A stretch of DNA of 64,000 nucleotides from Candidatus Lokiarchaeota archaeon (GTDB lineage: Archaea > Asgardarchaeota > Thorarchaeia > Thorarchaeales > Thorarchaeaceae): the NCBI GenBank assembly GCA_014730275.1, contig WJIL01000108.1, positions 1 to 64,000 on the forward strand, written 5' to 3'. The translations under genes were made by a program, and so were the position numbers. This document shows, in pieces, positions 12,432 through 50,566 of the stretch (positions are counted from its first letter, which is position 1; every line of letters begins with the position of its first letter). The notes under the pieces were generated by a model. That model did no database searches. It was not told the origin of the DNA and saw nothing but the letters and a program-made list of their open reading frames with translations.

Positions 12432-13028
12432 ATGACCGAGCCCATTGTTTACCACGTGCAAGAAGGACGCCTTGTTTTGATGAAGGATCCTGGAGCTTTT
12501 GGAAAAGGAGACTGTTACCTTGTTGACGGTGGGGACAAAATCTATCTGTGGATTGGACCCGAATCAACCGTTGATGAGAGATTCCTAACTGCAGCAGAAG
12601 CAGTAATGCAGGACACTGCCCGAAAAGGCAAAGCTGACATTGATAGAATCGATGGCGGGGATGAACCGGAATCGTTCACGACCCTTTTCGATGATTTCGA
12701 AATCACCGATCAAGATACTGCCAGTATGTTGAAGAAAGTGCGTTTAGAAACCCATGAGCACAAGCTATGGAAAGTACACCGTGAGGGGGACAAGACCTTC
12801 TTCACAGAAGTGCCACTTGAAGAAAGCTCACTGAAATCAGACGATGTTTTCGTGCTTGATGCATGGGATGACATCTACGTATGGCGAGGGAAAACAGCTA
12901 CAGCCAGAGAAAAATTCGATGGAAATATCATCGCAAGGAGATATGACGCGGAGAGGGTCGGCGTTCAGGATATCGAAATAATAGAGGAAGGAGCAGAACC
13001 AGAAGGGTTCTTTGAAAGCTTCGGTTAA
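12432..13028 (+). CDS. two-domain gelsolin-like protein (Asgard 2DGel type)
   Basis: 198 residues forming two gelsolin repeats and nothing else. Repeat 1 (about 1-95) has GDCYLVDGGDKIYLWIGPES followed by the long helix ERFLTAAEAVMQD. Repeat 2 (about 105-198) has DDVFVLDAWDDIYVWRGKTA followed by AREKFDGNIIARRY. The VLD-x-x-D-x-I-Y-x-W-x-G pattern is the gelsolin core strand-turn carrying calcium ligands. Two-domain gelsolins from Thorarchaeota are known to bind actin and to sever or sequester filaments in a calcium-dependent way, so actin regulation is the likely role. TTTAAG about 26 bases upstream suggests a leaderless mRNA. This gene is the best single marker of the host lineage. Confidence 0.88.
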   Translation: MTEPIVYHVQEGRLVLMKDPGAFGKGDCYLVDGGDKIYLWIGPESTVDERFLTAAEAVMQDTARKGKADIDRIDGGDEPESFTTLFDDFEITDQDTASMLKKVRLETHEHKLWKVHREGDKTFFTEVPLEESSLKSDDVFVLDAWDDIYVWRGKTATAREKFDGNIIARRYDAERVGVQDIEIIEEGAEPEGFFESFG

Positions 13029-46135: not shown

Positions 46136-46918
46136 ATGGGAAAAGAGGTACTAGCCTTGGCGCATGAGATTACATTTACAGAAGAAACCGACAGTCTCGA
46201 AGGTATCGAGCTGACTCCAGAGGGCAAGAAAGCCCAGAAGGAACTCGAATTTGTCAAGGAAGCAAGTCGTGCCGAATTGCTTGATGACCCGGTGAGATTA
46301 GAGATAGTCAAGATTCTCAGGCAAGGAATCCAAGACACGCAAACCACACGAGAGTTCAATGAGGAAAACAACGAAACCATCATACGCAAGAAAGAGGTCA
46401 GACGTAACATCATGTCTGTAACCGAAATCGTGAAGGTTAGCGAGGAAAATGAACAATTCAACAAGGTGACCAAAAACCAAGCCTACTACCATCTGCCCAA
46501 ATTAATCGAAGCGAATTTTGTAATAAAGTATGGTACCGTGGAAACAGGCGACAGAACCACCGACTATTATAGACGAACTGCACGAAGCTTCGTTCTTACT
46601 AGAGGCAGAATCGTAACGGGTCAGAAAGAGGTACGAGAACGAAACGAGAAACATGTTAAGCTACTTTCTCGGGTATTTGACTTGGGCTTATCTGAGGAAG
46701 ATAAGGAAAAGCTGGTGGAGTTACTTGTTAGCGCTGAAGACACAATCAATAAAGCAAGGCCAGAAATGGCTGAAAGAATCAGCGGTGATGTAGCCGACAA
46801 AGAGGTCATAGACACCTGGATGTGGCTGCTAAGATTGTATGCTTTTGGCGATGAAGAATGGGTGAAGCTCCAACGGAACATGCATGATCTAGTATTTGGA
46901 AAAGAGTCTCAAGAGTAA
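46136..46918 (+). CDS. winged-helix transcriptional regulator (ArsR-like)
   Basis: 260 residues. An acidic N-terminus (TFTEETDSLEGIELTPEGKK) precedes the winged helix (about 43-150). First helices LLDDPVRLEIVKILRQG, then a charged insertion of about 40 residues (TTREFNEENNETIIRKKEVRRNIM), then NQAYYHLPKLIEANFVIKYG as recognition helix and wing start. The C-terminal half is helical, probably for dimerisation. Three related palindromes in its promoter suggest autoregulation together with the divergent small frame. Effector unknown. Confidence 0.8.
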   Translation: MGKEVLALAHEITFTEETDSLEGIELTPEGKKAQKELEFVKEASRAELLDDPVRLEIVKILRQGIQDTQTTREFNEENNETIIRKKEVRRNIMSVTEIVKVSEENEQFNKVTKNQAYYHLPKLIEANFVIKYGTVETGDRTTDYYRRTARSFVLTRGRIVTGQKEVRERNEKHVKLLSRVFDLGLSEEDKEKLVELLVSAEDTINKARPEMAERISGDVADKEVIDTWMWLLRLYAFGDEEWVKLQRNMHDLVFGKESQE

Positions 46919-46963: not shown

Positions 46964-47338
46964 TTAGATTTGACCCTTAAGAGTAAGGGCGGTCCTTGCT
47001 AGATCGATAATCGCAAGCTCGGGTTCTGAATCAGTCTGTGCCCAGGCAATAAGCCATGTTCCGCTCTCAACCTTGCGCATCAGAATATGACCGTTTTTCT
47101 TTGCCGATGCTATGTAATAGTCTGAGCTGCACTCGACTTGTATGTAGGGCTTCCCCCCTACCACGATTGCCGGAGCATCGTTGACAAAAGCTTTGGCCAG
47201 CTGCTCCGTATCCTCGGCTAGATCCCAGTTATTCGTTTGCCAGACGATCTGCCCATCTTTGAAAACTGCAAAAGCACCTATCTTGGGATTGTTCTCATAA
47301 AGAAGAGTCCAAGAATTTTCGATACTGCTCAGTGATAT
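46964..47338 (-). CDS. profilin-like protein, second of a tandem pair, no standard start codon
   Basis: The frame is open from after a TAA at 47353-47351 down to the stop at 46964. Profilin-like landmarks: an N-terminal helix with ENSWTLLYE, strands GAFAVFKDGQIVWQTNNWDL (compare profilin A-x-I-x-G-x-D-G-x-V-W-A-x-S), then AIVVGGKPYIQVECS (profilin L-G-G-x-K-Y-M-V-I), a KKNGHILMRKV strand, WLIAWAQ, and a C-terminal helix. It is about 30-40% identical by eye to the neighbour at 47419. No ATG, GTG or TTG precedes the conserved part until 47164. An AAAGGAGAG ribosome binding site is followed by ATA (47338) and CTG (47332), the best start candidates. Otherwise the gene is damaged. Confidence 0.6.
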   Translation of the reverse strand: MSLSSIENSWTLLYENNPKIGAFAVFKDGQIVWQTNNWDLAEDTEQLAKAFVNDAPAIVVGGKPYIQVECSSDYYIASAKKNGHILMRKVESGTWLIAWAQTDSEPELAIIDLARTALTLKGQI

Positions 47339-47418
47339 ACTCTCCTTTTAGGTGGATATGGCACGGCATAGTATTCGCGGTTGTCAAAGTACTGTCCTAT
47401 CGGCTGCTGCCTGAAGGA

Positions 47419-47799
47419 CTATACCTTGCCTTTCAATGACTTGGCTGCGCGATCGACGTCTACATAGATTCCGTCAGGTGCAGCATCCTTGGCTGCCCAT
47501 GCTACTGCCCACTTGCCGTCTTCTATCTTGGCAAGCACGAGAGTACCATTACCCTGAACGTTTCTCGCTACCAAACTTTCTGGAGTTGTGCGTATCGTGC
47601 TGTATTTAACCTCATTCTGCTTCACACTTGTTGCTTCATTCTTCACGGCAGAAATCAGGCTTTGAGCGTCATTCTGAAGGTCCCAGTTGTCGCTCTGCCA
47701 CAATACTTCGCCGCTTTCAGAGATGACTCCAAAAGCTTGAACCATTTCGCCGCTGTCTTCATAGGCCTGTGTATATGCTTCCATTACAGGATCTGACAT
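47419..47799 (-). CDS. profilin-like actin-binding protein
   Basis: 126 residues from ATG 47799, the usual profilin length; a longer frame to 47880 is not profilin-like at its start. Order: helix (MEAYTQAYEDSG), strands VQAFGVISESGEVLWQSDNWDL, helix AQSLISAVKNEA, KQNEVKYSTIRTTPESLVARN (matches the profilin G-x-K-Y-x-x-I-R and the following K/R-x-x-x-G), GTLVLAKIEDGKWAVAWA, and a C-terminal helix VDRAAKSLKG. Asgard profilins bind actin and can regulate filament growth, so an actin role is likely. The roadblock/LC7 fold has similar secondary structure and is the main alternative. Confidence 0.65.
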   Translation of the reverse strand: MSDPVMEAYTQAYEDSGEMVQAFGVISESGEVLWQSDNWDLQNDAQSLISAVKNEATSVKQNEVKYSTIRTTPESLVARNVQGNGTLVLAKIEDGKWAVAWAAKDAAPDGIYVDVDRAAKSLKGKV

Positions 47800-47989
47800 T
47801 GTATTGTTCACCCGTACTTGAATTGTAGGAGCACAAGTCCATTTAAAGAAATTCTTGATAACCTCAATTCTTGCACGCAAGAGGACTCAGAAGTCTACAT
47901 TGTTAGTGGAAAGGACCACCGATGGTGTGATAGCTACCCAAAGACTTGTTATTCGCCCTGCAAGCCACACATACTGGAGAGTAATCCCC

Positions 47990-48304
47990 ATGTCTGTAAG
48001 CAAAGAAGTCATTTGGCAGGCCGATGCTGGAACGTTCTTGCGTGTGTTCGTGAAACCAAGGTCTGGGAAACGTAATCTACTTGAAGAAATGACCAAAAAC
48101 ACGATACAGCTTAATCTCAAGTCATCAGCAAGACGTGGCAAAGCCAACAAGGAACTGCTGAAACGAGTATCCAAGGTTCTAGGCATATCTTCAGGGGATA
48201 TCTCACTGGTAGCAGGACAGCGTTCAAGAGATAAAACGCTGCTCATCCCAAGTATGGAGCCTGATGAAATCATCGAAGCTTTTGAGAGCCTGAAGGAAGA
48301 ATAG
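47990..48304 (+). CDS. DUF167 (YggU/UPF0235) family protein
   Basis: 104 residues from ATG 47990. Family core: FLRVFVKPRSGKR, IQLNLKSSARRGKANKELLKRVSKVLGI, DISLVAGQRSRDKTLLI. The R-G-K-A-N-x-E-L segment and G-x-x-S-R-x-K are diagnostic. Function unknown in all domains of life. Upstream of the OPT transporter, 45 bases away, probably cotranscribed. Confidence 0.9.
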   Translation: MSVSKEVIWQADAGTFLRVFVKPRSGKRNLLEEMTKNTIQLNLKSSARRGKANKELLKRVSKVLGISSGDISLVAGQRSRDKTLLIPSMEPDEIIEAFESLKEE

Positions 48305-48349
48305 ACGAAATCTCAATTGGTTATCATATGAAGACACAGGGATGGGCTG

Positions 48350-50566
48350 ATGGCCTCCGAAGATCTGGTTTTGAGCAATAAGAACAGGTCAAAGCGGTCA
48401 TTACTCGCGGGGCTCTTTTCTGCCGGCCTTTTCTACATATTTTTCAGTCTATGGCGAGGTCGCTTTCCCAATCCTGCAATTATTACAGCAATTATCATTG
48501 AACTGGTACTCCTTTATGCTGCGCTTTTCGAACCAACCCCCACCAAGAAACGACTTGTGACCGGACTAACGGTAATCGTGCTATATTCAGTACTAAGTGT
48601 GATAGCAGGCTGGTTCTCAGAGATAGTTGTTATGGCAGCAGGCGGAATAGCAATCTATGCCTTTATGATGAGTGAACCCAACTTCCCGTTGACAAAGCGA
48701 GCGCTCACGACGGGTTTGATTGTTGGTACGGTTTACACATTTCTTGGAATCTATCTAGCGCTTAAACTAGGTATCGTCTATTTCATTGGTGCAGAAATGC
48801 TCGGTTTCATCGTTTTAACCCTTCACGGTCAATACACTCCAGAAGAGAATACGATTGTAGTAGCCATCGCAAACGGATCCTCCATGATTTCGGTTGGGGT
48901 CCTCATCACTTTCCCAGCTATCGCGATATTCCAACCGGAGATAGCACCTAGTCTCATTACCTATCCCTTCGTTGCATTCGTCACCTTCGTGAGTGCAGTT
49001 TTCGGTATGATACTACTTACACCCTTTCGTGAGAGATTCGACAAGCAGCCATGGCCCCAAGCTCAACCACAAGCAGAATGCATAGTCTCACTGGGAAAAG
49101 AGGAGGAAGCAAAGAAAGCTGTTCTAGCGGGTATGGGAGGTTCGGTCATATGGATGGGTGCGACAAAAATTGTAGAAGAAGCGACAGGGGGTACCCTCGA
49201 TTCGCTGCCAAATGCATTGCAACCGATTTTACCTGCAGTTAGGGCAATACCAGATTGGATTGGAATCAGCAATTCACCATTGATTGCAAGCATGGGCTTC
49301 TTCATGGGCTGGAAAAGAACTCTTGCTTTATCTTTGGGAAGCGCTGCATCGCTCCTCATTTGGGTGTTTGTAGAAAGACTACAGCCCGTTACATATGCAG
49401 CACATCTCCATAGACCTGAAATACTCTATCTAGCTCTTGGTGTTTTTGCCGCTGTAATTGGTGGCGACATCATAGCCACAAGAGAAGAGACTATGACCGT
49501 AGAAGAATTTGAGGCGGCGGTGAACAGACAACCGAATCGTGCTGAACAGCTAATTATTGACCGACCGCACCGACCATCAGAAGTGTCGGAGTATATCGAT
49601 GATGTGGACAAACAGACAATGTCGTTGAAAGTGTTCAAGAAAGAAGTCGAGCGTATGGTACGTGATCCAAGAGGGTACTTGGATGCCACAAGAGGGAAAC
49701 TGCCAATTTGGCTTGCAGCTGTGTCTCTCGCGCTTTTCACGGCTACAGGGATAATTACATTCTGGTTTCTCAAACCGTTTGCTGATCTTACTATTCATTG
49801 GTTGCTATTCATCCTTGGCGCGCCACTTGTACTCCTTTCTGCATACTTTACTGCCCGAGCTATCAGCGAAACTGGAATGCTGGCAGGCTATATCTCCGAC
49901 ATAATAGCTGTTCCAGCTATAATCTTCTTCCGCCTTTCATTTGCAGCTGTAACAACATTCATGGCGATGCTAGGTGCCTTGCAGGACGCCGCAATTGCTT
50001 TGTTACTCCATTTGAAGCTTGGAAAATTGACTGGAGTGAAAGGGAAAACGATTCTCAAAGCAGTATTTGTCGGTACGATTCTTGCTACAACTTTTGGTTC
50101 GTTAATCACATACAGTATCTACAGTCAATGGGGGTTTGGTGGCACCGAATTCCCTGCCCCCGCAGCTCAGTTATTTGGATTTCTAGTAATCAGTCTGCGA
50201 GGGCTCGGGAATCTTGCACTACCAGGACTTGATAGATTACCAGGTATACATCCCATGCTTGGGTTTTTCTATCTAATGTCGTTCGGCATAGTTGGTGCAC
50301 TCACCGGACGGGAATTGAATAAGAGAGATATGAGCGCAATCAGTCTTGCAGTAGGATTGCTTATCCCACCAGCAACATCAGCAGCTATGATTATTGGAGG
50401 GCTCATTGATTATCGGCTCAAGAAACTAGAGCAGATTGATGACAAAGAAGTATGTAAAAACAGACAAAATCGAACTACACGGGTACTAAGCGGTGTTGTT
50501 GCAGGAGAAGCGATAGTAACCATACTTTGGGTACTGTGGAGCGTGACCAACTTCCTTTTCATTTAG
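48350..50566 (+). CDS. OPT family transporter
   Basis: 738 residues with about 16 membrane helices in two clusters separated by a charged cytosolic region (about 375-450). ALTTGLIVGTVYTFLGIYLALKLG and NTIVVAIANGSSMISVGVLITFPAI fit the first OPT repeat; the conserved PWPQAQPQAECI matches the (K/Q)-x-P-x-G-x-A-x-A-x-x-L position. Later helices include AISETGMLAGYISDIIAVPAI and IHPMLGFFYLMSFGIVGALTG. OPT proteins import oligopeptides or metal chelates with protons. Substrate unknown. Confidence 0.82.
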   Translation: MASEDLVLSNKNRSKRSLLAGLFSAGLFYIFFSLWRGRFPNPAIITAIIIELVLLYAALFEPTPTKKRLVTGLTVIVLYSVLSVIAGWFSEIVVMAAGGIAIYAFMMSEPNFPLTKRALTTGLIVGTVYTFLGIYLALKLGIVYFIGAEMLGFIVLTLHGQYTPEENTIVVAIANGSSMISVGVLITFPAIAIFQPEIAPSLITYPFVAFVTFVSAVFGMILLTPFRERFDKQPWPQAQPQAECIVSLGKEEEAKKAVLAGMGGSVIWMGATKIVEEATGGTLDSLPNALQPILPAVRAIPDWIGISNSPLIASMGFFMGWKRTLALSLGSAASLLIWVFVERLQPVTYAAHLHRPEILYLALGVFAAVIGGDIIATREETMTVEEFEAAVNRQPNRAEQLIIDRPHRPSEVSEYIDDVDKQTMSLKVFKKEVERMVRDPRGYLDATRGKLPIWLAAVSLALFTATGIITFWFLKPFADLTIHWLLFILGAPLVLLSAYFTARAISETGMLAGYISDIIAVPAIIFFRLSFAAVTTFMAMLGALQDAAIALLLHLKLGKLTGVKGKTILKAVFVGTILATTFGSLITYSIYSQWGFGGTEFPAPAAQLFGFLVISLRGLGNLALPGLDRLPGIHPMLGFFYLMSFGIVGALTGRELNKRDMSAISLAVGLLIPPATSAAMIIGGLIDYRLKKLEQIDDKEVCKNRQNRTTRVLSGVVAGEAIVTILWVLWSVTNFLFI

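Follow-up and report, generated by a model that had tools for sequence, protein, structure and literature searches.

A tandem pair of diverged profilin genes conserved in a family of Thorarchaeia

The structures of Odin profilin (5ZZA) and of Loki profilins 1 and 2 (5YED/5YEE, 5ZZB) were solved with rabbit actin. thorProfilin (TFG12995.1, PDB 7PBH) slows actin elongation in vitro and binds poly-proline weakly, and the heimProfilin mutants G63A, F95A and G104A show a partial loss of elongation inhibition (PMC8410842). thorProfilin was made and studied with the residues MCGYNLGTEWISLRSKLE ahead of the sequence MSDPVM (7PBH; PMC8410842), and a later structure paper, cited in PMC12993045, carries the words 'extended N-terminus' in its title. 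This extension is part of the basis of a proposed regulation model; the authors of PMC8410842 themselves note that the model 'would not be valid anymore' should such extensions turn out to be misannotated.

We analysed a stretch of 64,000 nucleotides (hereafter the window) from a 3.64 Mb genome (G000) of the family-level group to which the genome encoding thorProfilin (G002) also belongs, a membership that points to a Thorarchaeal organism. A preliminary description had proposed two tandem profilin-like genes at 46964-47799. Indeed, we found two open reading frames there, in the same direction on the minus strand, which we call A and B (Table 1), and both of them match thorProfilin. Protein A aligns over its full length with the 7PBH chain (E=2e-62, about 80% identity) and has the same length as thorProfilin counted from MSDPVM. 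Protein B shares the fold of 7PBH with 32% identity (E=1.4e-20), its helix residues differ and it evolves faster. The two proteins are paralogues, with 31% identity by BLASTP (E=3e-18) and a profile-profile probability of 99.8% (E=5e-29), and the B family profile also matched the Odin and Loki profilins (E between 6e-13 and 4e-10). By these sequence comparisons, homology of A and B to profilins is far above chance level.

Table 1. Features of the profilin locus and of related loci (coordinates in the window unless a genome or locus is given)
Feature	Position	Strand	Description and basis
Profilin A	47419..47799	-	thorProfilin orthologue, 126 aa, ATG start; 7PBH match, family alignment
Profilin B	46964..47332	-	diverged second profilin, putative CTG start; 7PBH match, AlphaFold2, Foldseek, dN/dS
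A-B intergenic region	47333..47418	-	86 nt, no significant RNA structure
Shine-Dalgarno AAGGAG of B	47342..47347	-	9 nt before the CTG, right after the TAA; sequence, same context in G001
Putative CTG start of B	47330-47332	-	AAGGAG 9 nt before; identical context in G001
Shine-Dalgarno-like CGGGTGA of A	47808..47814	-	almost no variation at this site in the alignment of 40 upstream regions
TATA-like TTTAAATG upstream of A	47840..47847	-	clustered TATA-like octamers in relatives
Flanking genes	46136-46918 and 47855-50566	+	next to the A-B pair
Gelsolin-repeat protein	12432-13028	+	two stretches, Pfam match
Published thorProfilin extension	L023:2324-2380	-	genome G002; spans the gene's own Shine-Dalgarno-like site
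Profilin-fold paralogue C	G000:C4:4812-5201 (L033:1441-1830)	+	130-aa frame, unlinked; 7PBH E=0.0016

The A gene of G002 encodes exactly the 7PBH sequence, save for the C2A change engineered by the authors of that structure, and it is likewise adjoined by a B copy (locus L023). A is thus an already known protein, essentially thorProfilin, whereas B and a third, unlinked paralogue, C, are new members of the profilin kind; among the three, only the orthologue of A is described in the literature that we searched. Against the Pfam Profilin family (PF00235) A scores 20.2 bits, under the curated cut-off of 25, and a search of its own genome with this family found nothing, A included. Since A is a clear thorProfilin orthologue, the PF00235 cut-off misses these profilins. 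B is so unlike known profilins that it has no match in Pfam and no family in NCBIfam, and C has no Pfam match either, so that Pfam overlooks both.

The profilin fold of A rests on its identity to the solved structure. For B, an AlphaFold2 model based on 26 orthologues reached a mean pLDDT of 92.7 and a pTM of 0.87. When this model was compared with the PDB by Foldseek, the top matches were Odin profilin/actin, Loki profilin-2/actin, Loki profilin-1 and thorProfilin, with query-normalised TM scores of 0.81-0.92; the Odin and Loki profilins, which have the folds closest to that of B, gave 0.87-0.92 at 21-27% sequence identity, and the rmsd was 1.6-1.8 for the best Asgard profilins. The Loki profilins have an insertion, seen as an alignment gap, that B lacks. 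Eukaryotic profilins (Acanthamoeba 1ACF, yeast 1YPR, human 4X1M) came after the Asgard ones with a best TM of about 0.75; the likeness to them lies in the fold, sequence identity being 9-17%. The profilin identity and fold proposed in the preliminary description therefore hold for both copies. Its two motifs fared less well. GGxK/PY is present only in B of this genome (GGKPY) and absent from A (NEVKY), and the Tyr alone is invariant across both families; in place of DGx[IV]W the conserved pattern is W-Q-[ST], with W33/W34 invariant, and A reads SGEVLWQS.

The copies were also described as diverged, which their 31% identity bears out, and we observed that the pair is in addition ancient and family-wide. 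Of 37 family genomes, 34 have at least two profilin matches; the other three are incomplete (52%, 60%) or have A at a contig end. In the 28 loci measured, A and B are direct neighbours on one strand, with 54-187 nt between them, and the genes flanking the pair are kept in 26-28 of 30 loci; by reading of their sequences, one flank is winged-helix-like and the other DUF167-like plus OPT-transporter-like. Profilin was found in 155 of the 180 genomes of the phylum and, among the matches listed, the A-B adjacency is confined to this family. In a maximum-likelihood tree A forms one clade (100/97), B forms another (100/98), and the two group together to the exclusion of 40 other Asgard profilins (99/97); the deeper forks of this tree, built on an alignment of 125 columns, are not trustworthy. 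The grouping of the two clades indicates one duplication before the last common ancestor of the family, and the locus is best explained by an Asgard profilin gene that was duplicated in tandem long ago.

Both genes are under purifying selection. In close pairs the dN/dS of B was 0.05-0.14, and between B of this genome and B of its sister species (G001) it was 0.047; that of A in close pairs was 0.03-0.11. The median pairwise dN of B is 2.3 times that of A, B being higher in 376 of 378 pairs, and the median identity within orthologues is lower for B (45%) than for A (72%). These substitution patterns mark B as a functional gene whose constraint is looser or shifting. Residues invariant in both families are W33/34-Q, N37/38, W38/39, Y65/66, G83/85, P106/108 and D112/114. 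Other positions are fixed but unlike (from A to B: Y9 to W10, A12 to L13, G17 to N17, D109 to E107, and others); the conserved residues of the N-terminal helix are thus W10 and L13 in B versus Y9 and A12 in A, and the C-terminal helix starts with P-E-L in B versus P-D-G in A.

Each of the 13 high-quality family genomes has actin, and this genome gave one match (G000:C16:81369-82472). In four relatives we observed actin matches that are 30 bases longer than the others and hold one stop codon (G012:C20:27517-28650, G018:C90:841-1974, G016:C3:105694-106827, G019:C103:997-2130), perhaps because the match merely overruns the gene end. The window also encodes a gelsolin-repeat protein, which the preliminary description had grouped with the profilins as actin regulators; it is a real one (Pfam E=4.5e-25), but it lies 34 kb from the pair. 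Its two stretches fit the known Asgard 2DGel type.

Most likely, A binds the only clear actin of the genome in its monomeric form and slows or gates filament elongation. In alignments at about 20% identity, the position of heimProfilin G104 is an invariant Gly in both A and B; that of F95 is Leu in A and Tyr or Phe in 29 of 30 B sequences; and that of G63, where Gly is not kept, is Ala in A. The Trp associated with poly-proline binding (heimProfilin W53) is invariant in A and B. B, with a ribosome-binding site of its own, retains the profilin fold and, by alignment, would keep two actin-side positions; we infer that both proteins bind actin monomers, with B differing on the face formed by the N- and C-terminal helices and perhaps coupling actin to another partner. 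Separate partners for the two copies, as proposed earlier with actin and a poly-proline or lipid ligand as examples, are a plausible possibility. We hold with moderate confidence, on the grounds of residue conservation, that B is an actin-binding profilin with a differing ligand face; that the locus as a whole encodes duplicated profilins, both predicted actin binders and B with a different ligand face, is the best joint explanation and in our opinion a probable one.

The faster evolution of B and its differing, fixed helix residues would also fit a loss of actin binding, B having either neofunctionalised into an adaptor with a profilin fold or come to regulate A, and the failure of Pfam to recognise B points the same way. 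However, the invariant Gly at the G104 position and the aromatic residue at the F95 position are unlike a copy that gave up actin, and the best fold matches of B are actin-bound profilins; we therefore regard this loss as unlikely. It is much less likely still that the pair is redundant and retained for the sake of dosage: A and B are both profilins and always adjacent, but dosage copies would remain alike, whereas these are 31% identical and have formed separate clades since the family ancestor, with fixed differences in conserved columns.

The start of B deserves a comment. Its frame, which ends with the stop at 46964, is open for 127 codons from 47347 down. Between the in-frame TAA (47348-47350) and the conserved region, neither this genome nor G001, another species of the same genus, has an ATG, GTG or TTG, whereas all 28 other B orthologues have one of these within a few codons of that point. 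The simplest reading of the sequence is that B is initiated in this genus at a CTG behind a perfect AAGGAG. An ATA at 47336-47338 was also considered and is disfavoured, since the Shine-Dalgarno sequence would then be only 3 nt away. A mechanical search with ATG, GTG and TTG starts shortens B to 66 aa, and ordinary gene finders may truncate it likewise. The missing canonical start could suggest a pseudogene decaying in this genus, but this is hardly credible: the frame is free of stops and frameshifts, the CTG and AAGGAG context is common to the two species, and the low dN/dS between them argues that the protein is made. Inverted repeats between A and B are visible by eye in several species. 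Compared with dinucleotide shuffles, the 28 intergenic regions gave a mean z of -0.84, with two of them below -2, as in coding controls, and the idea of a conserved RNA hairpin was dropped.

The weakest alternative, that A and B are roadblock/LC7 proteins, which had been named as the finding that would overturn the profilin assignment, can be set aside with near certainty: roadblock partly shares the profilin architecture, occurs lower in the Foldseek list of B and was matched by profile (7f8m, E=0.33), but profilins fill ranks 1-24, roadblock structures, with TM 0.54-0.66 and rmsd above 5, begin only at rank 25, and neither A nor B matches Pfam Robl_LC7.

We also compared 40 distinct regions upstream of A and its orthologues. 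An in-frame stop lies within 18 codons upstream of the A start in 27 of them, a Shine-Dalgarno-like motif just ahead of A in 38, and in 37 the best TATA-like octamer has its centre between -70 and -50 (shuffles: mean 11.8, maximum 20). A longer A frame from a TTG at 47880 (153 aa) was rejected on account of these upstream stops and also because the promoter-like and Shine-Dalgarno sites would fall inside it. In the gene encoding 7PBH the box TTTTTTAT has its centre at -63, and the annotated ATG follows it after about 9 nt, at -54. In archaea, transcription starts about 25 nt downstream of the TATA box. The codons for L-R-S-K of the extension are CTACGGAGTAAA, which includes the Shine-Dalgarno-like CGGAG. 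With such a site inside, a TATA-like box so close ahead and stops in most relatives, the extension is most likely untranslated; the published 19 residues before MSDPVM are unlikely in A of this genome or its relatives. What was annotated as the N-terminal extension of thorProfilin is, to judge from these signals, probably an untranslated leader with the true Shine-Dalgarno site, although dual starts of thorProfilin are possible. This reading bears on the published extension and on the regulation model partly based on it.

Strong orthologues of C were found in 31 of 47 family genomes, and they form one clade. The confident AlphaFold2 model of C (pLDDT 93.5) had its best matches, at TM 0.79-0.89, among the Odin and Loki profilins, roadblock coming further down. 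Beyond the family, the C profile gave only weak matches, many of them at profilin loci already found.

Thorarchaeia may thus possess a three-profilin actin system with a division of labour, in which A would be the conserved monomer binder, B its tandem neighbour, evolving fast, differing in its ligand face and CTG-initiated in this genus, and C a third, unlinked protein of the profilin fold; such an isoform specialisation, evolved independently of the eukaryotic isoforms, is a possibility that we put forward tentatively and would not yet favour. Asgard profilins hold a central place in the case for regulated actin being older than eukaryotes, and in Thorarchaeia two of them, diverged from each other, have stayed neighbours since the common ancestor, with a third elsewhere.
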